A stretch of DNA of 64,000 bases, taken from an uncultured Bacteroidales bacterium. Its GTDB lineage: Bacteria > Bacteroidota > Bacteroidia > Bacteroidales > Paludibacteraceae. Numbering within the stretch: the stretch's first letter is position 1; the number at the start of each line of letters is the position of its first letter. Of the stretch, positions 16,865 through 44,594 are shown one piece after another. The stretch lies in the NCBI GenBank assembly GCA_900317745.1, contig ONHW01000003.1, positions 1 through 64,000 of the forward strand, read 5' to 3'. The notes under the pieces were generated by a model that did not search any database, was not told the origin of the DNA, and saw only the letters and a program-made list of their open reading frames with translations. The position numbers and the translations under genes were made by a program.

Positions 16865-18286
16865 ATGTTCATCGGAAGAGAAAAACAACAGCAAGAATTG
16901 CTCAATTTGCTGCAAAGTGACGAGTCTCAATTTTGTGCCATCTACGGCAGACGTCGTATCGGAAAGACCTATTTAGTCATGCAGACTTTTAATGGTCAGT
17001 TCGCTTTTGTTCACTCCGGGCTCAATAAAGCATCGAAAGAGGAACAGTTATGGGAGTTCCGTGAATCGCTACGAAATGCCGGTATGAAGCGATGCCGGCT
17101 TCCTAAAACATGGTTTGAAGCGTTCCATCTATTGGAGCAGCATCTCTCCACTCTTCCTCAAGCCAAAAAGATCGTATTTATCGATGAGTTGCCATGGTTA
17201 GACACTCCCAAAAGTCGCTTTGTTACTGCTTTGGAGCATTTCTGGAATGGTTGGGCGAATATGCGCGACGATATCATTCTCATTGTATGCGGAAGTGCCA
17301 CTTCGTGGATTATCAGTAATATTGTCCGCAACCATGGCGGTTTACACAATCGGCTCACTCAGCAAATATACTTAAAACCGTTCTCTTTAGCGGAATGTGA
17401 GCAATTTGTTCAGATGAGAAAACTACCTATGACCCGTAAGGACATTTTGGAGACCTATATGGTATTCGGTGGAGTGCCGTTCTACTGGAGTCTATTGCGA
17501 GCCGATTATTCATGGGCACAAAACATTGACAATCTGTTCTTCTCCGAGAATAGCGCTTTACACGACGAATTTTCCGCTTTGTATGCTTCGCTATTTAAAT
17601 CTCCTCAAGTTTACATTGATATAGTAACTACGCTTGCCACAAAAAAAATAGGCATGACTTTTGATGAATTAGACGAAGCGTTAACTGCTAATTTAGGAGG
17701 AAAATTATCCACTAAATTGGAAGAATTGGAGCAATGTAATTTTATCCGCTCTTATACTGCTTTAGGCAAAAAAAAGAAAGATACACGTTATCAATTGATT
17801 GACAACTACACGCTATTCTATTTTCAATTTATCACAAACCCTAAAATAGGAAACTGCACGAACTGGTTAACCATTATCGGAACACCGGTCTATCGCTCAT
17901 GGAGCGGCTTGGCGTTCGAACGAATATGCCTTTTGCACGAGAAGCAATTACTGGCAGCATTAGGCATATCCGGCATATCATGCGGCATATACTCTTGGAC
18001 ATACCGCCCCAAAGATGTACACGAACAAGGCACACAGATAGATTTGCTCATAGATCGTAGTGACAATGTTATTAACCTATGTGAAATCAAGTTTTCGGAC
18101 GAGCCATATCGTGTCACAAAGGAATATGATGCATCCCTTCGCAATAAAATAGGTACATTTAAGTATGCTACCAACACACGGAAAGCAGTCAGATTAGTTA
18201 TGATAACATCCTATGGTTTGGTTGAAAATGCCTATTCTAATAGTATTCCCAACAAACTGACAATGGATGATTTATTTAGAGTATGA
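16865..18286 (+). CDS. AAA ATPase, archaeal-type with DUF234-like C-terminus
   Basis: The 473-residue protein begins MFIGREKQQQELLNLL and has Walker A YGRRRIGKTYL near residue 28-38, Walker B IVFIDELPWLD near residue 103, and a sensor ICGSATSWI. After the winged-helix region the C-terminus has a PD-(D/E)XK-like pattern, QIDLLIDR...LCEIKFSD, typical of DUF234 proteins. The role is unknown; the family is widespread, mobile and suspected in toxin-antitoxin-like or defence functions. It is a lone gene flanked by two matching hairpins. Confidence 0.9.
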   Translation: MFIGREKQQQELLNLLQSDESQFCAIYGRRRIGKTYLVMQTFNGQFAFVHSGLNKASKEEQLWEFRESLRNAGMKRCRLPKTWFEAFHLLEQHLSTLPQAKKIVFIDELPWLDTPKSRFVTALEHFWNGWANMRDDIILIVCGSATSWIISNIVRNHGGLHNRLTQQIYLKPFSLAECEQFVQMRKLPMTRKDILETYMVFGGVPFYWSLLRADYSWAQNIDNLFFSENSALHDEFSALYASLFKSPQVYIDIVTTLATKKIGMTFDELDEALTANLGGKLSTKLEELEQCNFIRSYTALGKKKKDTRYQLIDNYTLFYFQFITNPKIGNCTNWLTIIGTPVYRSWSGLAFERICLLHEKQLLAALGISGISCGIYSWTYRPKDVHEQGTQIDLLIDRSDNVINLCEIKFSDEPYRVTKEYDASLRNKIGTFKYATNTRKAVRLVMITSYGLVENAYSNSIPNKLTMDDLFRV

Positions 18287-26034: not shown

Positions 26035-26481
26035 ATGCAAGACAAAACAACCATCCATATGGTTCCCGAACCCCGCAAGTCGGAACTTGTCCATGCCACT
26101 TACGGCATTGTGGGCGCGATGATAGAGGTGTATAAGAACCTCGGGGGTGGTTTGCCGGAGTATATTTATCAAGAGGCTCTCTTTACAGAACTGCAAGCCA
26201 ATGGCTTTAAGGCACACAAAGAGTTGGAGTATCACCCAATTTACAAGGGAAAACCTCTCAACGCATACCTTAAAATGGATCTCGTAGTGGAGACGCCTCT
26301 TGGCAATGTGATAGTGGAATGTAAGGCTTTGACAACTCTCTCTGAACGGGAACATTATCAGACCTTCGGATATTTGCGCGGAACGGGATGGCCTATCGCG
26401 ATACTTGTTAACTTTGGTGCCAGTCCACGTGCCCAGATTGAGAGATTTTATAATGATAACAACACCATCGCGGTGTTTTAA
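26035..26481 (+). CDS. GxxExxY protein
   Basis: The 148-residue protein carries the family signature GGLPEYIYQEAL (G-x-x-E-x-x-Y) and a nuclease-fold-like core MDLVVETPLGNVIVECKAL (D...E-x-K). GxxExxY proteins are PD-(D/E)XK-related, common in mobile and repeat-rich parts of genomes, and unassigned in function. The copy is intact. It is enclosed by the repeat family R2/R3 and by inverted copies of the TTAACCAAAAACG tip, which suggests it moves with, or depends on, these repeats. Confidence 0.88.
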   Translation: MQDKTTIHMVPEPRKSELVHATYGIVGAMIEVYKNLGGGLPEYIYQEALFTELQANGFKAHKELEYHPIYKGKPLNAYLKMDLVVETPLGNVIVECKALTTLSEREHYQTFGYLRGTGWPIAILVNFGASPRAQIERFYNDNNTIAVF

Positions 26482-26532: not shown

Positions 26533-26957
26533 AAATCAAAAACACGGAATCAACGCTATCGCGTCTTACGTAATAGTTCCTTAATCTACTTGTGAGCAAG
26601 CTCCCAGATAGTTTGATGACTTATTCCGCTAAGCATCAACGATAAATCATTGTTGCTTGATTCCTCACGAAAACGCACTACGTTTGCAAAAAAGCGCTAC
26701 GCTTTCAAAAACGACTATGCAGCGAGTTGGTATAAATGAAAAAGTTATTACACCGTAAGTTGAGCATGTTTTTGATAGTGCAGTGAAACGGAACGCTTTT
26801 TTGTGAGTTATGTAATAACGTGTTTTTGTAAGGCAGCAGAATGATATTTTATCATGCTGAATGGAAATATATAAGTGATTGATGGAAGCTTGCTTACAAA
26901 CAAGCAATTAGATATTTACATTAGACACATAGTGTCGTGCTGCCGCGTTTTTGATTT
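26533..26957. repeat. Interspersed repeat family, copy R3
   Basis: It starts AAATCAAAAACACGG and ends CGCGTTTTTGATTT. The 3' 225 bases are nearly identical to R4 and R2. A 5' extension contains TTTGCAAAAAAGCGCTACG and AGCAAGCTCC blocks similar to R1 and R2 in inverted or rearranged order. No gene is supported. Confidence 0.8.
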
Positions 26958-26984
26958 ACAAAAAATATGGTTAACTCATAAAGA

Positions 26985-27209
26985 ATAAAGAGAAATAACG
27001 TTCACTTTGTGTTGAAAATGTTTTTGATAGTGGAATGTAATGAAACGCTTTTTTGTGAGTTATGTAATAACGTGTTTTTGTAAGGCAGCAGAATGATATT
27101 TTATCATGCTGAATGGAAATATGTAAGTGATTGTTGGAAGCTTGCTTACGAACAAGCAATTAGATGTTTACATTAGACACATAGTGTCGTGCTGCCGCGT
27201 TTTTGATTT
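26985..27209. repeat. Interspersed repeat family, copy R4
   Basis: This shorter copy lacks the left tip. Its core and right end match R3 with few changes, including GACACATAGTGTC, which forms a hairpin. Its right end CGCGTTTTTGATTT lies 27 nt before the ABC transporter start, so it forms the leader of the polysaccharide operon. Confidence 0.82.
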
Positions 27210-27236
27210 ACAAACTAAAAGAAAATATACAAAAGA

Positions 27237-32406: not shown

Positions 32407-33820
32407 TAGCATACAATTCGCAATCTTTCTTCCGATAGTGTTTGCAATATACTGGTTGCTGCGGAAGAATTTGAAACTACAAAATCTATTTGTAGTCCTT
32501 GCGAGTTATGTATTCTACGGTTGGTGGGATTGGCGTTTCCTCTTTCTTATTGCCTTCACATCCTTCTGCTCATGGGGTAGCGGATTACTAATACATCAAA
32601 CATCAAACATCAAACATCAAACATCTCCCAAGTTCTGGCTGATAGCTAACGTAGTGCTCAATCTCGGAATTTTGGGCGTCTTCAAATACTACGATTTCTT
32701 TGTTACGAGTTTTGCGGGGATGTCGGGCGTAGATGCATCGCGACATTTGCTGAATGTGATATTGCCGGTGGGAATCAGTTTCTATACTTTCCAGGCCCTC
32801 TCATATTCCATTGATGTCTATCGCAATAAGATCGAACCAACTCGAGACCCGATAGTTTTTTTTGCATATGTGGCATTTTTTCCGCAGTTGGTAGCCGGGC
32901 CTATTGAGCGTGCTACCAATCTCTTGCCGCAGTTCCAAAAGGCTCGAACTTTTGATTATACGGAGGCGGTTGAGGGATGCCGACGCATCTTATGGGGATT
33001 ATTCAAGAAGATGGTAATTGCAGATAACTGTGCTGTTTATGTTGATTCGGTTTGGAAGGATTATGCTAACCAATCAGGAAGTACATTGGTTTTAGCGGCT
33101 GTCTTGTTTGCATTCCAGATTTATGGCGATTTCTCAGGTTATTCGGATATAGCGATAGGTACAGCCAAACTCTTTGGTATTAACTTGCGAGACAATTTCC
33201 TGACTCCTTACTTCAGTCGTAATGTAGCAGAGTTCTGGAAACGTTGGCATATCTCCCTCAACACATGGTTCGTGGATTATGTCTATATCCCTTTGGGCGG
33301 CAGTCGTGAGGGTAGGTGGAATACCATCCGTAATACCTTTGTAATCTTTCTCCTCTCCGGTTTATGGCATGGAGCGAATTGGACCTATGTGGGATGGGGC
33401 GCATACCATGCATTGTTGTTTGTGCCGCTGATTGGATTGGGCTTGACGAAGAAATACCGCGATACAGCTACCTGGCAGCAACTACCGCAGATGCTGTTGA
33501 CATTTACTTTGGTAGTGATAGGTTGGATTATCTTTAGAGCCCCATCTATTGCGGAAGCGTGGCATTATATTTTAGCAATGAGCAACAAATCGCTCTTGTC
33601 TGTACCTTGGTTAATGACGCGCGGTTTCTATATACCTCTCTTTATAAGCATCATAATTATGTTTGTCTTTGAGTGGATGGGAAGAAAAGACGGCTATGGT
33701 TTAGCATGGCTTCGAGGTAAAAAGGGAGTGCTTCAATTGGCAGTTTATTACTTTTTTATGATACTTATATACGCATGGCAATCAAGCGAAGAGATACAAT
33801 TTATTTATTTCCAGTTCTGA
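32396..33820 (+). CDS. MBOAT family O-acyltransferase
   Basis: The 474-residue polytopic protein has the MBOAT signature PVGISFYTFQALSYSIDVYR and the catalytic histidine region LSGLWHGANWTYVGWGAYH. It resembles AlgI/PatA/DltB enzymes that carry acyl groups across the membrane to glycans. An in-frame quasi-repeat (IHQTSNIKHQTS) is inserted in a loop between the second and third membrane helices. It is followed by an SGNH-like partner, the usual pairing for periplasmic acetylation. Confidence 0.93.
   Translation: MVFNSIQFAIFLPIVFAIYWLLRKNLKLQNLFVVLASYVFYGWWDWRFLFLIAFTSFCSWGSGLLIHQTSNIKHQTSPKFWLIANVVLNLGILGVFKYYDFFVTSFAGMSGVDASRHLLNVILPVGISFYTFQALSYSIDVYRNKIEPTRDPIVFFAYVAFFPQLVAGPIERATNLLPQFQKARTFDYTEAVEGCRRILWGLFKKMVIADNCAVYVDSVWKDYANQSGSTLVLAAVLFAFQIYGDFSGYSDIAIGTAKLFGINLRDNFLTPYFSRNVAEFWKRWHISLNTWFVDYVYIPLGGSREGRWNTIRNTFVIFLLSGLWHGANWTYVGWGAYHALLFVPLIGLGLTKKYRDTATWQQLPQMLLTFTLVVIGWIIFRAPSIAEAWHYILAMSNKSLLSVPWLMTRGFYIPLFISIIIMFVFEWMGRKDGYGLAWLRGKKGVLQLAVYYFFMILIYAWQSSEEIQFIYFQF
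32586..32631 (+). repeat. In-frame quasi-repeat in the MBOAT gene
   Basis: Five imperfect ACATCAA units (ACATCAAACATCAAACATCA) encode HQTSNIKHQTS between two membrane helices. The same unit type recurs at 35275-35345 and 46628-46660. Confidence 0.7.
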
Positions 33821-36704: not shown

Positions 36705-37727
36705 ATGGACATGAAATTAGCACCGATAATAGTATTTGCATACGATAGGCCTGAGCATTTAAAGCGGACAGTTGAAGCATTGGCGAATAATGTATTTGCC
36801 AGTGAGAGTGAGCTGTATATATACTGCGATGGACCTAAGTTAACGAGTGAAAGAATGAACGAGTTAACGAATGAAAGGGTGAAAGAGAGCAATGTCAGGG
36901 TAGAGCAGACACAATCTTTGGCTAAGCAGTATGCGATAGATGCACCGAAAGAGGGTAAGTTCAAGGCGGTGCATGTGGTATGCGCTAAGGCTAACAAAGG
37001 ATTGGCTAATAGTATCATAGGTGGAGTGTCGGAAGTGATCGCCAAGCATGGACGGGTAATTGTATTAGAGGATGATCTGCTGACATCGCCGTATTTTTTA
37101 AAGTATATGAATACGGCATTGGATAAGTACGAATCGTATCCATCGGTGTTTACTATCTCCGCTAATCGTCCACCGGTGAATAAGATGCAGATACCGGCTG
37201 ATTATGAGTATGATGTATTTGTAAGTCTGCGTCCGTTTAGTACGGGTTGGGCAACATGGAAGGAGAAATGGGAGAAGATTGATTGGAGTCTTGATTACCT
37301 AGACGAGTTTCTCAAACATCCGCAGCAGATTAAGTCCTTTCATCACGGAGGAGATGATTTGACGAAAATGCTCCTTTTGCAACGCAATCATAGAATCGAC
37401 AGTTGGGCAATACGATATTCGTTCCAGCTTTTCTATCATCATGCAGTAGCCATACTGCCGTGTGTGCCGTATGTAGATAATATCGGTTTTGACGGCACAG
37501 GAACACATAGCTGGGATGACGAGACGGATTTCCGCAATGACGTAGCTGCGGCTCCTGAGAATCCACGTATGCCAGATGTGATCTATGAGGACGAACGTAT
37601 CATCAATGCATTCTATAGTTATTATAGTTCTCGTAAACGCCCATTGTGGAAACGAGTGATAAATACCATCTATCGTAAATTGGGCAAACCCATACCCTTT
37701 GTGATTAAGAAGAAATTATATGAGTAA
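36705..37727 (+). CDS. Glycosyltransferase, GT-A fold
   Basis: The 340-residue protein begins MDMKLAPIIVFAYDRPEHLK and has IVLEDDLLTSPYFLKYMNTAL, with an EDD metal-binding motif, and RPFSTGWATWKEKW. It resembles GNT-I-like or family 2 enzymes in Bacteroidales glycan loci. An in-frame quasi-repeat (LTSERMNELTNERVKESN) is inserted in the N-terminal domain at 36840-36897. It overlaps the next gene by 8 nt. Confidence 0.87.
   Translation: MDMKLAPIIVFAYDRPEHLKRTVEALANNVFASESELYIYCDGPKLTSERMNELTNERVKESNVRVEQTQSLAKQYAIDAPKEGKFKAVHVVCAKANKGLANSIIGGVSEVIAKHGRVIVLEDDLLTSPYFLKYMNTALDKYESYPSVFTISANRPPVNKMQIPADYEYDVFVSLRPFSTGWATWKEKWEKIDWSLDYLDEFLKHPQQIKSFHHGGDDLTKMLLLQRNHRIDSWAIRYSFQLFYHHAVAILPCVPYVDNIGFDGTGTHSWDDETDFRNDVAAAPENPRMPDVIYEDERIINAFYSYYSSRKRPLWKRVINTIYRKLGKPIPFVIKKKLYE
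36840..36897 (+). repeat. In-frame quasi-repeat in a glycosyltransferase
   Basis: Units of AACGAGTGAAAG / AATGAACGAG encode a charged, helical-looking insert. The same unit type flanks the four-helix-bundle gene at 40897 and recurs, reversed, inside the gene at 41289 and in the relic at 50094. Confidence 0.8.
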
Positions 37728-38967
37728 ACAGGTTATTTTACATCTTACATCCGTAACCGGAGGAGGAGCCGGACAATATACGCTCAATATTCATCAGAAT
37801 ATGATTAGGGATGGATACGATTCGTATGTCTGTGCCAATGGGAAGCAGTTGATTTTGCCATCTGGTCAAGCCATAACTATATCTCATAAACGCCCCTCTC
37901 TTTTTACACGCTTAATACGCTATTTCATTAGAAGTACCATCGCCTGTACTGGTGGCGTGAACACGAAGTATGCTCCCTATAACTTGTTTGAACACCTAGA
38001 TTTATATGCCCCACAAGAGGTATTAAAGGTTATGCCGCAGAAACCGACGCATATCATGGTGCATTGGGTGAGCGGCTACGCAAATGCCAAGTATGTGCGA
38101 ACATTACAAGAACTAACCGGAGCGAAGGTATATTATTGGATGATAGATGAGGCATGTTTGGCGGGTGGTTGTCATTACCCTTGGGATTGCGAAGGCTATA
38201 AAACAGGTTGTGCGGATTGCCCGATGACAAAATCGCATATCATTCAATCTGCAATCCATAAGAATTTTCAACATAAGTTACGCTATATACCAAATGATGC
38301 GGAGGTGGTTCTCCCTACGGATATGGATCGGATTCGATTGGAGCAGTCTCCAATATGGCAAGGACATACATGGCATAAACTCTTGGAGATAGTCAATGAA
38401 GATATTTTTACGCCTGTGGGTGATATAGACGCTATCAAGAAGGAATTTAATATCCCGACCGATAAACGGATTTTGCTATTTGGTAGTTCGCATTTAGATG
38501 AAGAACGCAAGGGCATGCGAGTCTTGATCAAAGCATTGCAAAAGATAGATAGAGAAGATGTGGTATGTGTCGTAATAGGCAGTCAAGATACATTGGATAT
38601 TAAATTACCTAATATCCGATTAGGTAGAGTAGATATACCGACATTGGCTAAACTCTATCGAGTTGCTGATATCTTTGTTTGTCCATCGCTTGAAGACTCC
38701 GGACCTCAAATGATTAATCAATCTATCATGAGTGGTACACCTGTGGTGGCATTTAAGATGGGGGTGGCTTTGGATATAGTGAAAACCGGAGAGACCGGTT
38801 ATTTGGCGAAATGGAATGATGCTGAAGATTTGGCAAAGGGCATTAATTATTTGCTTGACATCCCACAAGAAGAGTTCGCTACCATGCGCGACAATTGTAG
38901 AACCCTTGCACTACGACAGTTTTCAAGAGATGTGCAAAGCAAAATGATAAAAGAATTATTGGCATGA
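37720..38967 (+). CDS. Glycosyltransferase family 4 (GT-B)
   Basis: The 415-residue protein has the glycine-rich N-terminal SVTGGGAGQYTLNIH and the C-terminal donor-binding region ILLFGSSHLDEERKGMRVLI, VCPSLEDSGPQMINQSIMSGTPVVAF with the E-x7-E-type motif. A cysteine-rich CHYPWDCEGYKTGCADCP lies in the N-terminal domain, as in many Bacteroidales family 4 enzymes. The acceptor is unknown. It overlaps neighbours by 8 and 4 nt. Confidence 0.92.
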   Translation: MSKQVILHLTSVTGGGAGQYTLNIHQNMIRDGYDSYVCANGKQLILPSGQAITISHKRPSLFTRLIRYFIRSTIACTGGVNTKYAPYNLFEHLDLYAPQEVLKVMPQKPTHIMVHWVSGYANAKYVRTLQELTGAKVYYWMIDEACLAGGCHYPWDCEGYKTGCADCPMTKSHIIQSAIHKNFQHKLRYIPNDAEVVLPTDMDRIRLEQSPIWQGHTWHKLLEIVNEDIFTPVGDIDAIKKEFNIPTDKRILLFGSSHLDEERKGMRVLIKALQKIDREDVVCVVIGSQDTLDIKLPNIRLGRVDIPTLAKLYRVADIFVCPSLEDSGPQMINQSIMSGTPVVAFKMGVALDIVKTGETGYLAKWNDAEDLAKGINYLLDIPQEEFATMRDNCRTLALRQFSRDVQSKMIKELLA

Positions 38968-39974
38968 AGCGAGATGTAACCATAGATTTAATGAAAGGAG
39001 TAGCGATCATACTAATGATGGTGGCTCATTTGGTGTTCGATACAGGAATGCCAAAGCATATTATTCACTCTTTTCATATGCCATTGTTTTTGATCATAGC
39101 CGGTATATTTGCGAAAGATATATCAGATATTGCGTCGTTCCGTCAATACACGATTAAGAATGCCAAACGTTTGCTCTTGCCATACGTAGTCACGATGTTG
39201 ATGTTATGTGTTTGGGGCGTATTATTGACCTATGCAAAGCATGACGTTAGTTACGTAATTCGTCATCTGTTGTCTATGATAACAGCAAGTGCAGATGGAT
39301 GGCATACGCAGTGGGGAATCATTTATGCCGGACCAATATGGTTCCTTGTGGCATTGTTTTGGGTGCGAGAACTATTCTATTGCATACAACGGATATGCGT
39401 GCGCGCGCATAAGTATAGAGACGAACTCATTATGGGCATTAGTATCTTATTATCCCTTATTTCCGTCCTTACTCATCCATATATGCCATCCTTGCCATTC
39501 TGCATTATGCAAGCGTTTACGGCTCTCGGATTTTATGCGGCAGGATGGTATATCCATCGTCATCCAATGCCTTGGTGGGTATATGCTCTTTGTGTTATTG
39601 CATGGCCGTTTGCGATTTTGTATGGTTATATTGGAATTGATAGTTGTACAATCAATTACTACCCGCTATCCTTTATTGGAGCTTGTGGCGGAACGTATGT
39701 TATCTATCTGCTATGTAAAGCTTGGGCAAAAGTTATTAGTTTGTTTAACATAAAACATTCAACATTAAACATTACATCACCGCTCACTTGGTGTGGAGTA
39801 TACTCTCTCCCCATTCTCTGTATGCATGATTTCTTGATGTATAGTGCTCTTATGTATTCCATAATGATTAGAATACCGTATGGTGGTCCATTAGTATGGG
39901 GTGGATTGTTAGCAGTTATCATGGCATACATCTTGTTAAGAATACCAGTGCTAAAGAAAGTGTATGGTGGATAG
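38964..39974 (+). CDS. Membrane acyltransferase, acyltransferase-3 family
   Basis: The 336-residue polytopic protein opens RDVTIDLMKGVAIILMMVAHLVFD and HSFHMPLFLIIAGIFAK, hallmarks of the AT3/OafA-like family. It has about ten membrane helices and probably acetylates a sugar. An in-frame quasi-repeat (LFNIKHSTLNITS) lies in a loop at 39744-39777. It overlaps the following spacer repeat. Confidence 0.9.
   Translation: MKRDVTIDLMKGVAIILMMVAHLVFDTGMPKHIIHSFHMPLFLIIAGIFAKDISDIASFRQYTIKNAKRLLLPYVVTMLMLCVWGVLLTYAKHDVSYVIRHLLSMITASADGWHTQWGIIYAGPIWFLVALFWVRELFYCIQRICVRAHKYRDELIMGISILLSLISVLTHPYMPSLPFCIMQAFTALGFYAAGWYIHRHPMPWWVYALCVIAWPFAILYGYIGIDSCTINYYPLSFIGACGGTYVIYLLCKAWAKVISLFNIKHSTLNITSPLTWCGVYSLPILCMHDFLMYSALMYSIMIRIPYGGPLVWGGLLAVIMAYILLRIPVLKKVYGG
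39744..39777 (+). repeat. In-frame quasi-repeat in the acyltransferase
   Basis: Units of AACATAAA, ACATTCA, ACATTAA and ACATTAC form the sequence. They extend a cytoplasmic or periplasmic loop by about 12 residues. Confidence 0.65.
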
Positions 39975-39999
39975 TGTAAAGTGTAATAGTGTAAAGCGT
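39966..39999 (+). repeat. Quasi-repeat ahead of a glycosyltransferase
   Basis: AGTGTAAAGTGTAATAGTGT and related units fill the spacer between the acyltransferase stop and the ATG at 40000. Confidence 0.65.
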
Positions 40000-40860
40000 A
40001 TGAAACTGAGTATTATAACAATCAATTATAATAACGTTGAGGGATTAAAGAGAACCCTTGCGTCGGTGGCAGAGCAGAGCTATCGAGACGTCGAGCATAT
40101 CATCATAGATGGAGGTTCTACAGATGGGGCGGTAGATGCTATTAAAGAGTATGTTCAAAAAGTCGATAGTCGAGAGTCAAAAGTCAATAGAGTGAAATGG
40201 TCGAGCGAACCGGATAAGGGGATATATAATGCGATGAACAAAGGCATTAAGAAAGCGACTGGAGCCTATATACAAATCTTGAATAGCGGAGACATACTTG
40301 CTGCTCCTAATGTGACAGAGCGCATGATGAATGCTATATACACCGTACACCATACACCATACACTGAGAATATCCCCGATATTCTCTATGGCAACATGAT
40401 TAGAAAAGACTATGCTACCGGCAAAATAGATGGTAAGAGCAAAGAAGTTGAATACTCATTGCGTCAATACTTTGCATCAACGATGAATCATGATTGTTGC
40501 TATATTCGTAGAGACTTGTTCCAAACATACGGACTATATGATGAAAGTCTCAAAATCGTGAGTGATTGGAAATGGTTTTTGCTGGCAATTGGTTTAGGGA
40601 ATGTCAAACCGATATATGTAGATATTGATGTTACGATATTTGACTGTAGCGGTATCAGTGAGACGAATTTAGAACTTCGTAATAAAGAGCGGAGACAAGT
40701 TCTCGAAGAAGTATTGCCTCCTGCTATCCTCGCAGATTACGATAAGTATGCATTTCCGATGGAGCAATACAATCGGTTGAAGAAATATCATTTGTGGCCG
40801 ATAGTATATTTTATGGAAAGAGTACTCTTTAAACTTAATAAATGGCATATTTTGCGGTAA
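40000..40860 (+). CDS. Family 2 glycosyltransferase
   Basis: The 286-residue GT-A enzyme begins MKLSIITINYNNVEGLKRTL with IIDGGSTDGAV and WSSEPDKGIYNAMNKGI, the DxD-like donor site. Two in-frame quasi-repeats are inserted (VQKVDSRESKVNRVK at 40153-40198, YTVHHTPYTE at 40337-40369). The ATG at 40000 is chosen because upstream bases are themselves a quasi-repeat of GTGTAAAGTGTAATAGTGTAA. Confidence 0.9.
   Translation: MKLSIITINYNNVEGLKRTLASVAEQSYRDVEHIIIDGGSTDGAVDAIKEYVQKVDSRESKVNRVKWSSEPDKGIYNAMNKGIKKATGAYIQILNSGDILAAPNVTERMMNAIYTVHHTPYTENIPDILYGNMIRKDYATGKIDGKSKEVEYSLRQYFASTMNHDCCYIRRDLFQTYGLYDESLKIVSDWKWFLLAIGLGNVKPIYVDIDVTIFDCSGISETNLELRNKERRQVLEEVLPPAILADYDKYAFPMEQYNRLKKYHLWPIVYFMERVLFKLNKWHILR
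40153..40198 (+). repeat. In-frame quasi-repeat in the family 2 transferase
   Basis: AGTCGATAGTCGAGAGTCAA and following units lengthen a loop before the donor-site motif. A second insert of ACACCATACACC units lies at 40337-40369. Confidence 0.65.
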
Positions 40861-40896
40861 CGAGTGAAGGTTGAACGAATGAACGAGTGAAAGTAT
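40861..40896 (+). repeat. Quasi-repeat 5' of the first four-helix-bundle gene
   Basis: CGAGTGAAGGTTGAACGAAT followed by GAACGAGTGAAAG fills the whole spacer. Unit sequence matches the inserts at 36840 and, reversed, at 41457. Bases 41262-41285 after the gene are another run (TTCAGTCGTTAAACATTAAT). Confidence 0.75.
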
Positions 40897-41280
40897 ATGA
40901 ATGAAGCAAAATATAGTTATAAGAATCTGGATGTATACAAGGAATCGAAGGTCCTTGTGAAAATGGTGTACGGATTGCTCAAGCAATTTCCTAAGGAGGA
41001 GCAATATGCATTATGCGACCAACTGAGACGTGCAGTTATATCTGTGCCCTCTAATATAGCAGAAGGAAGTGGACGTACCTCAATGAAGGATCAAGCACAT
41101 TTTCTCGAAATGTCATTTGGCTCTCTAATGGAGGGTGATTGTCAAATAGATATAGCGTGTGATTTGGAATACATTACGCAAGAGGATCTTAGTAATATAT
41201 GTATCCAAATTAGTAGGGTTGCAGCGATGTTATCCGCTCTGCGTAATAAATGCCTTCAACGTTCAGTCGTTAAACATTAA
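40897..41280 (+). CDS. Four-helix-bundle protein, S23/Avd-like (first)
   Basis: The 127-residue protein has the S23/IVP family pattern: YKNLDVYKESKVLVKMVYGLL, LCDQLRRAVISVPSNIAEGSGR and LEMSFGSLMEGDCQIDIACDL. The family is related to the Avd accessory protein of diversity-generating retroelements, a basic pentameric barrel that binds nucleic acid and reverse transcriptase. No reverse transcriptase is visible here. The gene is flanked on both sides by quasi-repeats and lies in the glycan operon without an obvious biosynthetic role. Confidence 0.93.
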   Translation: MNEAKYSYKNLDVYKESKVLVKMVYGLLKQFPKEEQYALCDQLRRAVISVPSNIAEGSGRTSMKDQAHFLEMSFGSLMEGDCQIDIACDLEYITQEDLSNICIQISRVAAMLSALRNKCLQRSVVKH

Positions 41281-41288
41281 TTATCGTT

Positions 41289-42317
41289 ATGAAAAAAACT
41301 CGCTTTTCAGTCATAATGCCTCTATACAACAAGGCTCCGTTTGTACGGAAAGCCTTGCAATCCATTGCGTCTCAAACATACCGTGATTTCGAACTCATCA
41401 TCATTGATGATGGTTCGACTGATAATAGCGCTGCTATCTGTGATGAGTCTTTTCAAACGTTCAATCATTCACTCGCTCATTCGATAAACGTTAATCGTTC
41501 ATTCGTTCATTCGTTCATTCGGCAAACTAATTCCGGCGTGGCAGCAGCGCGCAATCGCGGTGTCGCAGAAAGCCACGGAGAATTTGTTTGCTTCCTCGAT
41601 GCCGACGACTGGTGGGAACCGACTTTCTTAGAGGAGATGGATAAACTGATTACGGAGTATCCGGATGCAGGCATCTATGCTTCTAACTATATCTACTACA
41701 AGCCCGGCAAAACGCACATTGCTCTGAACTTGGAACGAGGATACATCGATTATCCAAAAGCCTATTACGAAGGCTCTTCTATGCCGATATGGACTGGTGC
41801 TACCTGCATGCCGCGTAAGGTGTTTGATGAGATGGGGGGATTCCCGGTGGGAATCAAACTTGGAGAAGATTTCCTGCTTTGGGCTAAGACTGCTCTTCAT
41901 TATCCGGTGGTATTTTCTGAGAAACCTTTGGCATATTATAATAACGATATTCCTGCATCCCTGCGCGCCACCCGCAACCTCCACGCCCCGGAGTATCACA
42001 TGCTATTCAATCTCGGTCCGTTAGAACGCGAAATCGAGCAATCAACAACTGATCAGCAGTCAGCTGCTTGGAAACAGTTGCTGGACAAGTTGCGTGTATT
42101 AGGATTGATGGACTATTGGCTGAGTGCCGAGTATCACGAAGCCGCTGCGACAGAACTTACTAAAGTCGATTGGAGAATGCAACCGAAGAGCGCAAAGGCA
42201 CAGTATGAGAAGCCAATATGGTTGCTGAAGGTTAAGAGATGGATTATGAGGGCAGGAAGTTATTGCAAGCAGCGGTTAATATACATCATTAAATATCAAT
42301 TCAAACAAAAGCAATGA
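41289..42317 (+). CDS. Family 2 glycosyltransferase
   Basis: The 342-residue GT-A enzyme opens FSVIMPLYNKAPFVRKALQS with IIIDDGSTDNSAAI and VCFLDADDWWEP, the DxD site. Between the first two, an insert of about 27 residues (FNHSLAHSINVNRSFVHSF) is encoded by TTCATTCGTTCATTCG units at 41457-41523. GVAAARNRG follows at its normal place, so the insert is extra. It overlaps the next remnant by 4 nt and is the last intact gene of the glycan operon. Confidence 0.92.
   Translation: MKKTRFSVIMPLYNKAPFVRKALQSIASQTYRDFELIIIDDGSTDNSAAICDESFQTFNHSLAHSINVNRSFVHSFIRQTNSGVAAARNRGVAESHGEFVCFLDADDWWEPTFLEEMDKLITEYPDAGIYASNYIYYKPGKTHIALNLERGYIDYPKAYYEGSSMPIWTGATCMPRKVFDEMGGFPVGIKLGEDFLLWAKTALHYPVVFSEKPLAYYNNDIPASLRATRNLHAPEYHMLFNLGPLEREIEQSTTDQQSAAWKQLLDKLRVLGLMDYWLSAEYHEAAATELTKVDWRMQPKSAKAQYEKPIWLLKVKRWIMRAGSYCKQRLIYIIKYQFKQKQ
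41457..41523 (+). repeat. In-frame quasi-repeat in the last glycosyltransferase
   Basis: CGTTCATTCGTTCATTCGTT and related units are present. Read on the minus strand they are GAATGAACGA units, the same family as at 36840 and 40861. Confidence 0.8.
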
Positions 42318-42600
42318 AAACAGTTTGGTTAATAATCTATTATTGTTTAGCAAAATACTTGCCAAAGTCCAATCGCCCGGTATTAGGCCGTTTCGGGGGA
42401 TGGCTGCGCTACCAGTGTGCTAAACACTTGTTTGCGGAATGCAAGGGATACGTAAATCTCGAACAAGGTGCATATATAGGGGTTGCAAACGAATCGGTGC
42501 ACATAGCATCATCGGTGCCGGTGCGGTTGTGACGCATGATGTACCAGACTATGCCATCGTAGGCGGTAATCCTGCCAAGATTATACGAATGCGGAAATAA
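42314..42600 (+). pseudogene. Left-handed beta-helix acetyltransferase, internally deleted
   Basis: The 5' part encodes MKTVWLIIYYCLAKYLPKSN and the usual N-terminus of a serine or maltose acetyltransferase-like protein. After EQGAYIG the reading frame changes. The 3' part, [20 protein letters not shown] and PAKIIRMRK, is the typical C-terminus in another frame. The hexapeptide-repeat body between them is missing, about 90-100 residues, so the gene is inactive. The deletion joins two glycine-rich coding segments. Confidence 0.88.
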
Positions 42601-42623
42601 TACGTGAGATATAACAATAAATT

Positions 42624-43712
42624 ATGCTACGTTGGTTTGATACTGTCCATTCATACGACCTTTTACACATGCCGGATCGGTTGTATAAGTATTATCGCTA
42701 CGATGATGCACTCAATGCCAAACGGTTGTCCGGACAAGTGTATTTGGCTTCACCGCTCGATTTTAATGATCCATGCGATTGCCAACGTAAGGTGATTAAT
42801 AATGCTCAAACTCGTTGTGAACAAAAGGGTATAGATTGGCTGTATGGCAAATTGCTTGAACTGGGGTATAATAGGGAGCAAGTGGATGATGTAGCCGACA
42901 AACTCTTGAAGGACGATGAGGATGTCCTTTACGAGGTATATAAACGCCAATTGGAGCGGGCCGGCGTCCTGTGTCTTGCCGGTACGGCTACTGATACGCT
43001 GATGTGGGGGTATTATGCAAGCAATGAGGGATATTGCCTTGAATATGATACGCAACAGATTGTTGAACGGTTGGTATTGGGTTATGTCAATAAGTTGGAT
43101 TACGTTATTACCGACAAATATTTGAACGTGGATCGATATAGACTGTCGCCTATTGAGCGAGACAAAGAAACGCCATCCGACAAACTACGATACGTCGCAC
43201 GATTTGACGCATCTGCCGCTTCTCTTGTCACTAACCGATATCTGTTGGATCATGCCGATTCTGTCGAGGTGGCGCATTTCTTGCAGAATGTGTTTATCAA
43301 GCGTTTTGCTGGATGAAATATTGATTATCAGGTATCTGTTGACGGTTCGCCTTCAACCCTGTTTTTCGATAAAACAAACGAAGCGAGCAAAACAAAGTAC
43401 TACAAAAAAACCACTGTTTGGGAACATGAGCGAGAGTTTCGTGTCGTTGTGTCCCTGGGTGGAAGAATGGCTATCAATCTTGGCGCAGATTGTATTCGAA
43501 ATATTTACCTCGGCTGCAATATGTCCACCGAGAAAGTCCTTGAGGTTGCAAATCTGTTAAAATGCTGCGGCGTCCATGCCGGTTTGTACAAGATGCGCCG
43601 TATGGTGAGTTGCGCATTACAGGCAGAGCCCATTCCCGACATCCTTACACGTCCTATGACATATACAGCCGCCCACGAGTATTTGCAAAAGCAATGCCAT
43701 CTCCGCTGGTAA
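42624..43712 (+). pseudogene. DUF2971 protein interrupted by one stop codon
   Basis: The first 230 codons encode RLYKYYRYDDALNAKRLSGQ, VYLASPLDFNDPCD and LCLAGTATDTLMWGYYASNE, typical of DUF2971. At 43314-43316 a TGA interrupts the frame (RFAG-stop-NIDYQVSVDG). The same frame then continues without damage for 132 codons, including TTVWEHEREFRVVVSLGG. A TGG to TGA change is the simplest cause. DUF2971 proteins are often found near defence or mobile genes; function is unknown. A read-through product cannot be excluded. Confidence 0.85.
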
Positions 43713-43757
43713 ATGCTGCTGTGACCTCCTCCATTCAGCGGCAATGCCGCGTCACCC

Positions 43758-43811
43758 TTTAACAATTAGCAATAAAATAGCGTCACCATTAAGCAATTCA
43801 CCATTATATTT
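43758..43811 (+). repeat. Quasi-repeat 5' of the second four-helix-bundle gene
   Basis: Units AACAATTAGCAAT, CGTCACCATTAAGCAATT and CACCATTA fill the spacer. A matching run follows the gene at 44181-44222 (CACCATTAAGCGCAGCGTCA, CCATTAAGCAATTATCAAT). Confidence 0.75.
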
Positions 43812-44180
43812 ATGTTGAACGAAAAAGACAAAATCTACAAAGAGAAATTCATGGCTTTTGCCGTTAGGATAGTTAAACTTAAGAATTATCTCAACGAGCA
43901 GAAACACGAATACAATATAGCCGATCAGATCCAGCGTTCAGGCACTGCAATCGGAGCCAACCACCGTGAGGCAATAGCGGCCGAAAGCGAAGTGGATTTT
44001 GTACATAAATTGGCTATTGCTCAAAAGGAGTGTAATGAAACATTATATTGGTTAGAACTATTGAAGGCGACGGACTACATTGATGAAAAACTTTTTAATA
44101 GCCTTTATGCTGATGCTGAGGAAATAATGCGTATGCTTACAGCAAGTATCATTACTGTTAAAAAACGACTAAAAAAGTAA
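43812..44180 (+). CDS. Four-helix-bundle protein, S23/Avd-like (second)
   Basis: The 122-residue protein shows KEKFMAFAVRIVKLKNYLNE, IADQIQRSGTAIGANHREAIAAES and KLAIAQKECNETLYWLELL, the S23 family pattern. It is only distantly similar to the copy at 40897. Both genes have quasi-repeats on each side, which is the strongest evidence here that the repeats and this protein family belong together. Four-helix-bundle proteins of this family are small, basic and oligomeric, with no enzyme activity known. Confidence 0.93.
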   Translation: MLNEKDKIYKEKFMAFAVRIVKLKNYLNEQKHEYNIADQIQRSGTAIGANHREAIAAESEVDFVHKLAIAQKECNETLYWLELLKATDYIDEKLFNSLYADAEEIMRMLTASIITVKKRLKK

Positions 44181-44594
44181 CACCATTAAGCGCAGCGTCA
44201 CCATTAAGCAATTATCAATAGAAAGTTGTCTTTAGATTAAATATCTAACCTTTTTCACGAATATTTGGCTATTTTCTTGTATATGTCATTTTTTCCCGTA
44301 ACTTTACACGCTGTTTTGTGTATCGCGCCACCACGAAGCCGTCGATGTGGAGCAAGAGTGGATTCGAAGAGGAACTGGATAACGATGATCTGTAAGATGG
44401 GGAAGGCGGTCAACAATTAACAACCATTATCATAAATTTGCGAGTGTAATTGATTTTCCAATATCCCTCATGCTATCGAAAAATGGTACTGCATATTGCA
44501 AAAATATGTAATTTTAGCGGTTGTAACCGAAAAAAATATATAAAATTTGGCGGTTTGACTAAAAGATAGTATCTTTGCAACAAATTTTGGAACT
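44181..44594. other. Repeats, degenerate promoter cassette and coding relic
   Basis: Bases 44181-44222 are quasi-repeats. Bases 44231-44310 match a promoter cassette at 60004-60085: the palindrome TTTAGATTAAATATCTAA, then CGAATATTTGG, then TTG (44277-44279) and a degenerate TAACTTTA (44299-44306). A short relic follows (RHHEAVDVEQEWIR, then a shifted ELDNDDL, 44325-44395). Another quasi-repeat (CAACAATTAACAACCATTAT) is at 44408-44430. The ATPase promoter lies at 44546-44577. Confidence 0.65.
44546..44577 (+). promoter_or_regulatory. Promoter of the third ATPase
   Basis: TTTG at 44546-44549, 20 nt, TATCTTTG at 44570-44577. The motif GCGGTT occurs twice nearby (44518 and 44550), one as an inverted GCGGTT-GTA-ACCG pair, a possible operator. 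Confidence 0.65.

Follow-up and report, generated by a model that had tools for sequence, protein, structure and literature searches.

Free-standing S23 genes between inverted heptamer arrays: probable relatives of the rRNA intervening sequences at operon junctions of Bacteroidota and other bacteria

The intervening sequence (IVS) found in the rRNA of Coxiella is reported to have complementary borders, to be excised by RNase III without ligation, and to carry three tandem heptamers, or two in some strains, before the start of its S23 open reading frame (ORF) (PMC4990558), while rRNA insertions of the Candidate Phyla Radiation (CPR) have also been described to contain 23S_rRNA_IVP ORFs (PMC11270868). 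Genes of the S23, or “four helix bundle”, family (PF05635) are depicted as common, conserved and of no known function (PMC4990558), and their likeness to Avd has been noted (PMC10053308). Heptanucleotide repeats, in turn, are over-represented in bacterial genomes by a mechanism presented as not evident in two papers (PMC4679880, PMC4692102), the published examples being three repeats in Calothrix, TAACTGA of Beggiatoaceae, cyanobacteria and Bacteroidetes, which often stands directly before start codons (PMC4679880), and GGGAATC of Xanthomonas, often seen in convergent inverted pairs (70 and 75 cases; PMC4692102); a word search for S23 in the main text of both papers found nothing. The present work concerns a stretch of DNA in which these subjects meet, namely, 64,000 nucleotides of an uncultured Bacteroidales bacterium of the Paludibacteraceae (positions 1 to 64,000 of contig ONHW01000003.1, assembly GCA_900317745.1), hereafter referred to as the window, which holds two S23 genes (40897..41280 and 43812..44180, both on the + strand) that an earlier note had described as having degenerate repeats on both sides. 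Within the open PubMed Central (PMC) literature, subscription papers and preprints being outside the scope, no report was found of S23 genes at sites other than rRNA that have inverted heptamer arrays on their two sides.

The coupling between S23 genes and quasi-repeats is general beyond the window. Matches to PF05635 occur in 48 of the 61 genomes of the window's genus, with up to 10 copies in each, and if each ORF is scored by how well its upstream flank aligns locally with the reverse complement of its downstream one (best match; threshold 15), inverted flanks scoring at least 15 are seen at 60/86 S23 genes of the genus (median score 18.25), as opposed to 16/204 small and 20/418 long control ORFs (p 6e-28 and 1e-34, respectively). 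The same was observed in other taxa (Flavobacteria, Cytophagia, Omnitrophica, Verrucomicrobia, Chloroflexi, Patescibacteria and others), where inverted arms accompany 68/80 S23 genes versus 19/123 small and 39/256 long controls (p 5e-32 against all of them), and at 9 of the 10 S23 copies from cyanobacterial plasmids, so the enrichment next to S23 genes over other small genes, on which the earlier note had staked its proposal, is indeed there. ORFs were called using a crude longest-first rule, and the controls originate from the same stretches, some of them adjoining an S23 gene (26/556 controls not adjoining one reach 15). The genus set consists of 87 S23 ORFs from 29 best-per-genome loci, 60 hand-picked stretches and the window's contig (C19; L, C and G numbers are our handles for loci, contigs and genomes), one of which was dropped due to short flanks, and no S23 ORF was called at L021, L026, L066, L070, L078, L086, L087, L093, L098, L099, L103 and C19:77364, which are therefore outside the counts. 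The set from other taxa represents the best 80 of 587 loci by similarity, which gave 83 S23 ORFs, 80 of them with full flanks (one flank of the 80 holds a run of N), whereas the plasmid records examined were 10 of the 30 with S23 and 5 of the 88 with Cas4. When the S23 genes are split by motif, 43/61, 15/20 and 2/5 score at or above the threshold.

That such arms would be a trait of any accessory small gene is rejected by a comparison of families within the same genus, in which inverted brackets were found at 18/28 S23, 19/26 GxxExxY, 0/28 ParE and 3/26 ORF6N genes. S23 being the sole bracketed family is, however, rejected just as clearly, as GxxExxY genes are bracketed too (17/19 in one comparison and 19/26 in the other, these being the usable loci among 30). 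An unbiased census of 645 ORFs returned 13 with inverted flanks scoring at least 18, the ranking of which is headed by an S23 gene, followed by a GxxExxY gene, an ORF that adjoins this GxxExxY gene and is probably spurious, and another S23 gene.

The arms themselves have a recognizable anatomy. Their self-identity peaks at shifts of 7, 14 and 21, the period-7 peak amounting to 0.384 versus 0.308 in controls for the genus and 0.397 versus 0.317 for the other taxa, and in 68/86 (p 4e-9) and 72/81 (p 4e-13) cases the pairing of an arm with its true partner exceeds the average over 20 swapped ones. The 5' arm shows a positive GC skew in 56/86 and 64/81 cases and the 3' arm a negative one in 50/86 and 61/81, the arm units differ among loci within one genome, and two hand-picked whole elements fold with the arms as an outer stem around the ORF (z of -5.0 and -3.7).

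Operon junctions that are occupied in some species and empty in others establish, as far as sequence comparison goes, that the 5' arm, S23 ORF and 3' arm form one element of approximately 440–540 nt at the junctions measured. For nqrD-nqrE and sdhA-sdhB, the scope is the fetched loci, 30 for each, plus L016 for nqr; the 30 nqr loci all derive from different genomes, and L016 represents a further species. Among the 31 nqrD-nqrE junctions, 28 have spacers of 0–3 nt and three hold whole elements of 499, 538 and 503 nt (the last being L016), every insert consisting of a 5' arm, S23 and a 3' arm, so that arms and ORF are present or absent jointly; one species (L049) has S23 in nqrD-nqrE and nqrE-nqrF alike. 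At sdhA-sdhB, 18 of the 30 loci have 2–5 nt, and three have S23 elements of 486–532 nt; one further locus (L302; 1/30) has a 421-nt spacer with a 118-aa ORF (1110-1466) lacking an NCBIfam match. The fadB-thiolase junction of Chryseobacterium (30 loci, L336-L365) contains S23 elements of 441–461 nt in eight cases and, in L360, a 148-nt remnant that has kept both arms and lost most of the S23 ORF, with 27–121 nt being found at four other loci. The remaining 17/30 have inserts of 504–735 nt with other hairpins at the same place, of which the one in L337 encodes an IS200/RAYT-like transposase, as does, judged by eye, that in L362, and that in L352 encodes none. On cyanobacterial plasmids (L285 and L287), S23 genes separate cas6 from cas4 in type I-D CRISPR operons: the plasmid of Anabaena sp. 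90 has S23 together with long GGTGACAGGGAACA arrays there, and Pseudanabaena galeata has an S23 gene with GCTAAAA arrays. Dolichospermum UHCC 0315A, the Cas4 of which is 98.5% identical to that of Anabaena 90, has a different 245-nt spacer instead, the Pseudanabaena ABRG5-3 spacer has a 36-nt heptamer array, and three other cyanobacterial plasmids have 5–66 nt.

Several observations make the element mobile-looking. The sdhA-sdhB copies of two species of the genus are identical at 443/450 positions over the S23 gene and the 3' arm, the host genes of these two species being identical at 429/500 (sdhA, upstream) and 432/500 (sdhB, downstream). The three nqrD-nqrE S23 proteins are not monophyletic, one of them being closest to a copy at another site, and this junction has, therefore, probably been used more than once. 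S23 proteins that are up to 91% identical are found at different sites in different species (L051 and L064), with GT2-like genes downstream of both and differing genes upstream. For pairs of different-site copies within the genus, an arm score of at least 18 is seen in 1% of those below 40% protein identity, and with rising identity this fraction goes from 1 to 8, 20, 40 and 62% (n=26, 70–80% identity), followed by 4/6 pairs above 80%; arms and ORF thus tend to travel or diverge jointly. With co-directional neighbors, S23 keeps their sense in 57/58 and 63/64 cases (orientation was classable for 66/87 and 69/83 S23 ORFs, the others having distant neighbors or none). Where measurable, the substitution pattern shows the S23 ORF to be under purifying selection: dN/dS was 0.02–0.09 in 6/20 printed pairs with computable dS, and the four pairs with dS below 1.5 had a median of 0.09.

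The two S23 genes of the window are, by themselves, weak representatives of this class. Gene 1 (127 aa) matches PF05635 (E 6.3e-34), TIGR02436 and, as the sole solved structure, PDB 2GSC (E 1.8e-25), a Xanthomonas S23 homopentamer (PMC4990558), and gene 2 (122 aa) matches PF05635 (1.8e-27) and TIGR02436 (3.5e-30). The 5' arm of the first, a quasi-tandem GAACGAATGAACGAGTGAA array at 40858..40893 on the + strand (40872-40891 as delimited by Tandem Repeats Finder, TRF), has an inverted match in the 3' arm (41255..41296, +), which overlaps the last codons of the ORF, and the score of this alignment is reached by 21/2000 shuffles; when 110-nt flanks without the ORF are used, the inverted match is at chance level (994/1000 shuffles reach the score). 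At gene 2, flank alignment places AGCGTCACCATTAAGCAATT on both sides (43779..43806 and 44181..44221, both +) in direct orientation, which 0/2000 shuffles attain. Self-repeat scores of the single flanks, 11 and 10 for gene 1 and 14 and 11 for gene 2, lie within the control range (small-ORF medians of 9 and 10, upper quartiles of 14). Since the gene 1 signal needs the gene ends and the single-flank scores are control-like, the window alone is only suggestive of the coupling. Two more S23 genes of the same contig, at 118566 and, with an internal TAG, at 77364, have inverted arms reached by 0/2000 and 19/2000 shuffles, respectively. The repeats reported in the earlier note are thus real, but the inverted bracket is faint on the 3' side of gene 1 and replaced by a direct one at gene 2.

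Its claim that the unit upstream of gene 1 recurs within two glycosyltransferase genes proved accurate, as the local score is 23.5 for the array at 36840 (36838..36887, +, in frame in the glycosyltransferase gene) and 19.5, reversed, for the one at 41457 (41455..41521, - strand, in frame in a GT2 gene), both found by TRF, alignment to the 5' arm and pattern search; the latter falls in a loop whose length varies among the three aligned homologues. Allowing for no more than two mismatches, the unit has nine matches in the whole 2.6 Mb genome, all on C19 (36842-36883, 40874, 41468-41523 and 74527). Repeats are also not identical across relatives, since L053 and L061 share an S23 element and differ in their arm sequences. 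The proposed kinship with Avd holds for gene 1 at the level of profiles, where both matches stay below the curated cut-offs (bAvd E 2.7e-6, 28 of 40 bits; DivGenRetAVD 5e-8, 33 of 80 bits), and fails for gene 2, which matches neither of the two. The notion of a diversification cassette gives way to arrays that are mostly the inverted arms of one insertion, and a reverse transcriptase partner elsewhere in S23-containing genomes is rejected as well: RVT_1 is present in 12/48 genomes with and 3/13 genomes without S23, and no RVT_1 (PF00078) match was found in the window's genome (95.6% complete), so a reverse transcriptase of this family is not needed. Diversification of surface-glycan enzymes as a purpose fares no better, as the 65 downstream neighbors match 100 Pfam families, with Rnf-Nqr in four cases and GT2, DegT, UDP-GlcNAc epimerase and UDP-glucose dehydrogenase in two each. 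Glycan genes as a special target are, accordingly, unsupported by these varied neighbors, and yet three S23 genes of the genus are preceded by homologous GT2 genes with near-identical C-termini (window 39964-40860; L064 4421-5515; L067 4389-5270), so that gene 1 of the window occupies a place in a glycan cluster that has been re-used.

We consider it probable (roughly 0.6) that the free-standing S23 genes represent the coding part of an IVS-type mobile element living outside rRNA, because the rRNA IVS of Coxiella has the same anatomy of stem, heptamers and S23 ORF, and we class the units as a variant of IVSs rather than as members because the sites read lie outside the rRNA location by which the latter are defined. 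The S23 element would be transcribed by its host operon, its sense orientation fitting a promoterless ORF dependent on host transcription, and the arms would fold as a stem around the ORF, which RNase III might cut as it does in rRNA IVSs. Such a cut would presumably be harmless at gene junctions or in rRNA loops, and this harmlessness would explain why rRNA loops and operon junctions are the sites of survival. The likeness of S23 to Avd suggests that S23 binds hairpin RNA, its pentamer possibly holding the element's own hairpin much as Avd deals with RNA in diversity-generating retroelements. New copies could then be pasted by host repair or recombination, in a homing-like manner into orthologous junctions and occasionally elsewhere, with solo heptamer arrays perhaps being remnants or short copies of the arms.

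A number of points weigh against this interpretation. The alike stretch at sdhA-sdhB reaches about 45 nt into sdhB and omits the 5' arm, where 42/50 positions agree and 4 columns are gaps, and it could, therefore, have been carried by ordinary interspecies recombination; the correlation between arms and proteins over all different-site pairs, which are non-independent, is weak (rho 0.15 in the genus and 0.19 in the other taxa); 4/7 same-site groups are monophyletic. Most copies at the Chryseobacterium fad site follow their hosts and look vertically inherited, making that site a mixed result that was discarded as proof of movement. Long control ORFs are also mostly in sense (120/130 and 30/35). 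No enzyme that moves S23 elements is known, and inspection by eye of the nqr and sdh inserts, with their ends placed approximately, revealed no target-site duplication. Strong inverted arms are absent at 26/86 S23 genes of the genus and 12/80 of the other taxa, and the flanks of gene 2 in the window give no inverted signal (525/2000 shuffles) besides the direct one. Direct matches of at least 15 are also commoner at S23 genes of the genus (23/86 versus 19/204 small and 50/418 long controls; rank p 0.06 and 0.048), with no such excess in other taxa (13/80 versus 19/123 and 48/256; p 0.31); direct repeats as the chief signature were rejected, their excess being smaller than the inverted one in the genus and nil elsewhere. 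At 8/30 sdhA-sdhB loci, there are repeats of 22–39 nt without S23, which, when folded as would-be miniatures, gave no clear hairpins (-0.1 to -2.2 kcal/mol), some of them being imperfectly heptameric. Solo arrays outnumber S23 genes, the majority of those on C19 are distant from S23, and genomes without S23 still carry period-7 arrays (13.4 per 100 kb). Finally, the sampling was guided by profile scores and our own choice.

These solo arrays, which may be remnants or offspring of S23 elements, or independent of them, are also where the competing explanations find most of their footing. S23 might act in trans in a RAYT/REPIN-like or Avd-like fashion, copying or maintaining genome-wide arrays of its own unit, so that the arms would be the cognate copy and the solo arrays the offspring, which we regard as unlikely. 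This is, in essence, what the earlier note proposed, with no encoded reverse transcriptase. It would accommodate the higher density of period-7 arrays in genomes with S23 (25.5 per 100 kb, as judged from the first parts of two contigs per genome in ten genomes with and ten without S23), the spread of a single unit in the neighborhood of gene 1, the Chryseobacterium fad junction, which holds S23 elements at some loci and at others hairpin-flanked inserts, among which one was shown to encode an IS200/RAYT-like transposase, and the closer resemblance of solo arrays to the S23 arms of their own genome (0.43 versus 0.32 for other genomes, own higher in 120/184; in a strict set, 0.48 versus 0.34, own higher in 34/50, p 3e-5). 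This resemblance is, however, carried largely by the mostly AT-rich top arrays of the strict test, which come from two genomes, G034 and G043; in the density comparison, G034 alone supplies 21/68 arrays of the S23-containing group; moreover, arrays persist where S23 is absent, and S23 has, to our knowledge, no catalytic residues.

The converse, with heptamer arrays arising and spreading through something unrelated, for instance slippage and template switching, and S23 hitch-hiking through recombination between them, is to our minds rather unlikely too. The surplus of solo arrays and their occurrence at junctions devoid of S23 (the 8/30 sdhA-sdhB loci), the bracketing of GxxExxY genes, and the slight excess of direct flank matches in the genus would all suit a passenger, but recombination between tandem arrays would mostly yield direct flanks, whereas the strong signal is inverted; ParE and ORF6N genes are hardly bracketed, and related S23 genes at different sites have similar arms. 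If S23 were simply an operon gene of the host, the hairpins around it being conserved as an attenuator or processing site, it would be expected to show the sense orientation and purifying selection that it does show, yet neither its position nor its presence is conserved (3/31 genomes at nqrD-nqrE and 3/30 at sdhA-sdhB), and the varied operons, multiple copies per genome and unconserved arm sequences render such a host regulator highly improbable. Chance or generic low complexity beside small genes, for which the abundance of arrays in these genomes and the two weak cases in the window could be cited, is barely credible for the class as a whole in the face of the matched same-stretch controls, the family controls and the swap control, which refute it less firmly for gene 1 alone.

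With regard to the solo arrays of the window's contig, 36 arrays with a period of 7 and 2.5 or more copies were counted on C19 (254 kb), compared with a mean of 1.8 in five shuffles. Those delimited by TRF near the S23 genes, all on the + strand, are AACATTA at 39747..39774, inside a membrane-protein ORF (38964-39974; acyltransferase-like by eye), AAAGTGT at 39957..40000, at a gene junction, and AGTCAAT at 40161..40190 and ATACACC at 40338..40364, both inside a GT2 gene (GT2 by Pfam); ACATCAA, in 4.7 copies, is found further upstream at 32593..32625, inside an ORF. Elsewhere on C19, an ORF at 132153-134768, alanyl-tRNA synthetase-like by its N-terminus as read by eye, contains an in-frame ATTTACG heptamer array. 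Other bracketed genes were also encountered. GxxExxY genes (PF13366, PD-(D/E)XK nuclease superfamily; L215-L244, and 26035-26481 in the window) have inverted-repeat brackets with units that are longer and of different styles, and a 252-nt tandem repeat of 1.8 copies (26759-27214) lies directly 3' of the one in the window. An ATPase_2/AAA gene of the window (16865-18286) has long near-perfect repeats, inverted and direct, on either side (TTTCCGAAAT...). Proteins of 183–235 aa with a weak, sub-cut-off S23 match are encoded at L085 (9556-10263, contig C12), L101, L102 and L104, the longer S23-like gene of C12 (L085) having GTCCTTAGGGTC-type repeats on both flanks.

If free-standing S23 genes indeed belong to an IVS-type element, then S23 genes, heptamer repeats and rRNA IVSs become joined in a way that makes each of them testable: what does S23 bind; is operon mRNA cut at the stems; how does the element spread without a catalytic enzyme; and why is the step seven? 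Heptamer arrays inside surface-glycan genes do not have to serve phase variation, and the S23 element may help explain the origin of repeats of about seven letters in bacterial genomes. A bolder generalization, which we put forward only tentatively and hold to be doubtful, is that S23 elements constitute a broad mobile class with no catalytic enzyme of its own, made of a four-helix-bundle protein and a hairpin, the arms of which would be rewritten in 7-nt steps and moved by host enzymes via an RNA or single-stranded intermediate; rRNA IVSs would then be its rRNA-inserted members, its debris would be a main source of heptanucleotide repeats in Bacteroidota, Cyanobacteria and others, and a second class of this kind would be built around the GxxExxY genes.

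Among the described systems, the Foldback/Galileo transposons of eukaryotes also have inverted, internally repetitive termini (PMC3573991), but these carry a transposase, unlike the S23 elements, and no relation is implied. The published heptanucleotide repeats resemble S23 arms in having a 7-nt unit and in being largely intergenic. Avd is alike at the profile level as regards gene 1, S23 differing in that no reverse transcriptase is needed. In RAYT-REPIN systems, a single ORF is flanked by its own repeats, with solo copies elsewhere, an arrangement that the S23 elements share as to the flanking repeats and may share as to the dispersed copies, and the occupation of one Chryseobacterium junction by S23 elements and an IS200/RAYT-like element adds to the likeness. 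S23 is, however, not accompanied by an HUH transposase (the S23 proteins of the window match PF05635 alone, gene 1 also bAvd, and no HUH (Y1) transposase profile), and its repeats are heptamer arrays that vary among the loci of one genome rather than fixed palindromes. In comparison with the rRNA IVSs, the sites read here are protein-gene junctions (nqr, sdh, fad, cas and ribonucleotide reductase), no search for rRNA having been made at every locus; unlike in Coxiella, the unit changes from locus to locus, a genome may contain up to 10 copies, the arrays of the Anabaena 90 copy are far longer, and internal stops are found in just 5 of the S23 matches listed for the genus, whereas the Coxiella ORF is reportedly decaying (PMC4990558). 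The closest resemblance, nevertheless, is to these IVSs of bacterial 16S and 23S rRNA, those of Coxiella and Leptospira and the CPR rRNA insertions, which share with the present elements a sporadic distribution, an S23 ORF (PF05635/TIGR02436 here) and stem-forming complementary ends, the latter being evident for the class (60/86 and 68/80, the swap control and the two folds), weak at gene 1 of the window and missing at gene 2. The tandem heptamers before the S23 start have their counterpart in the period-7 peak of the arms, and the length is similar as well, 428–444 nt being given for the Coxiella IVS (PMC4990558) and 441–538 nt having been found at three junctions here.

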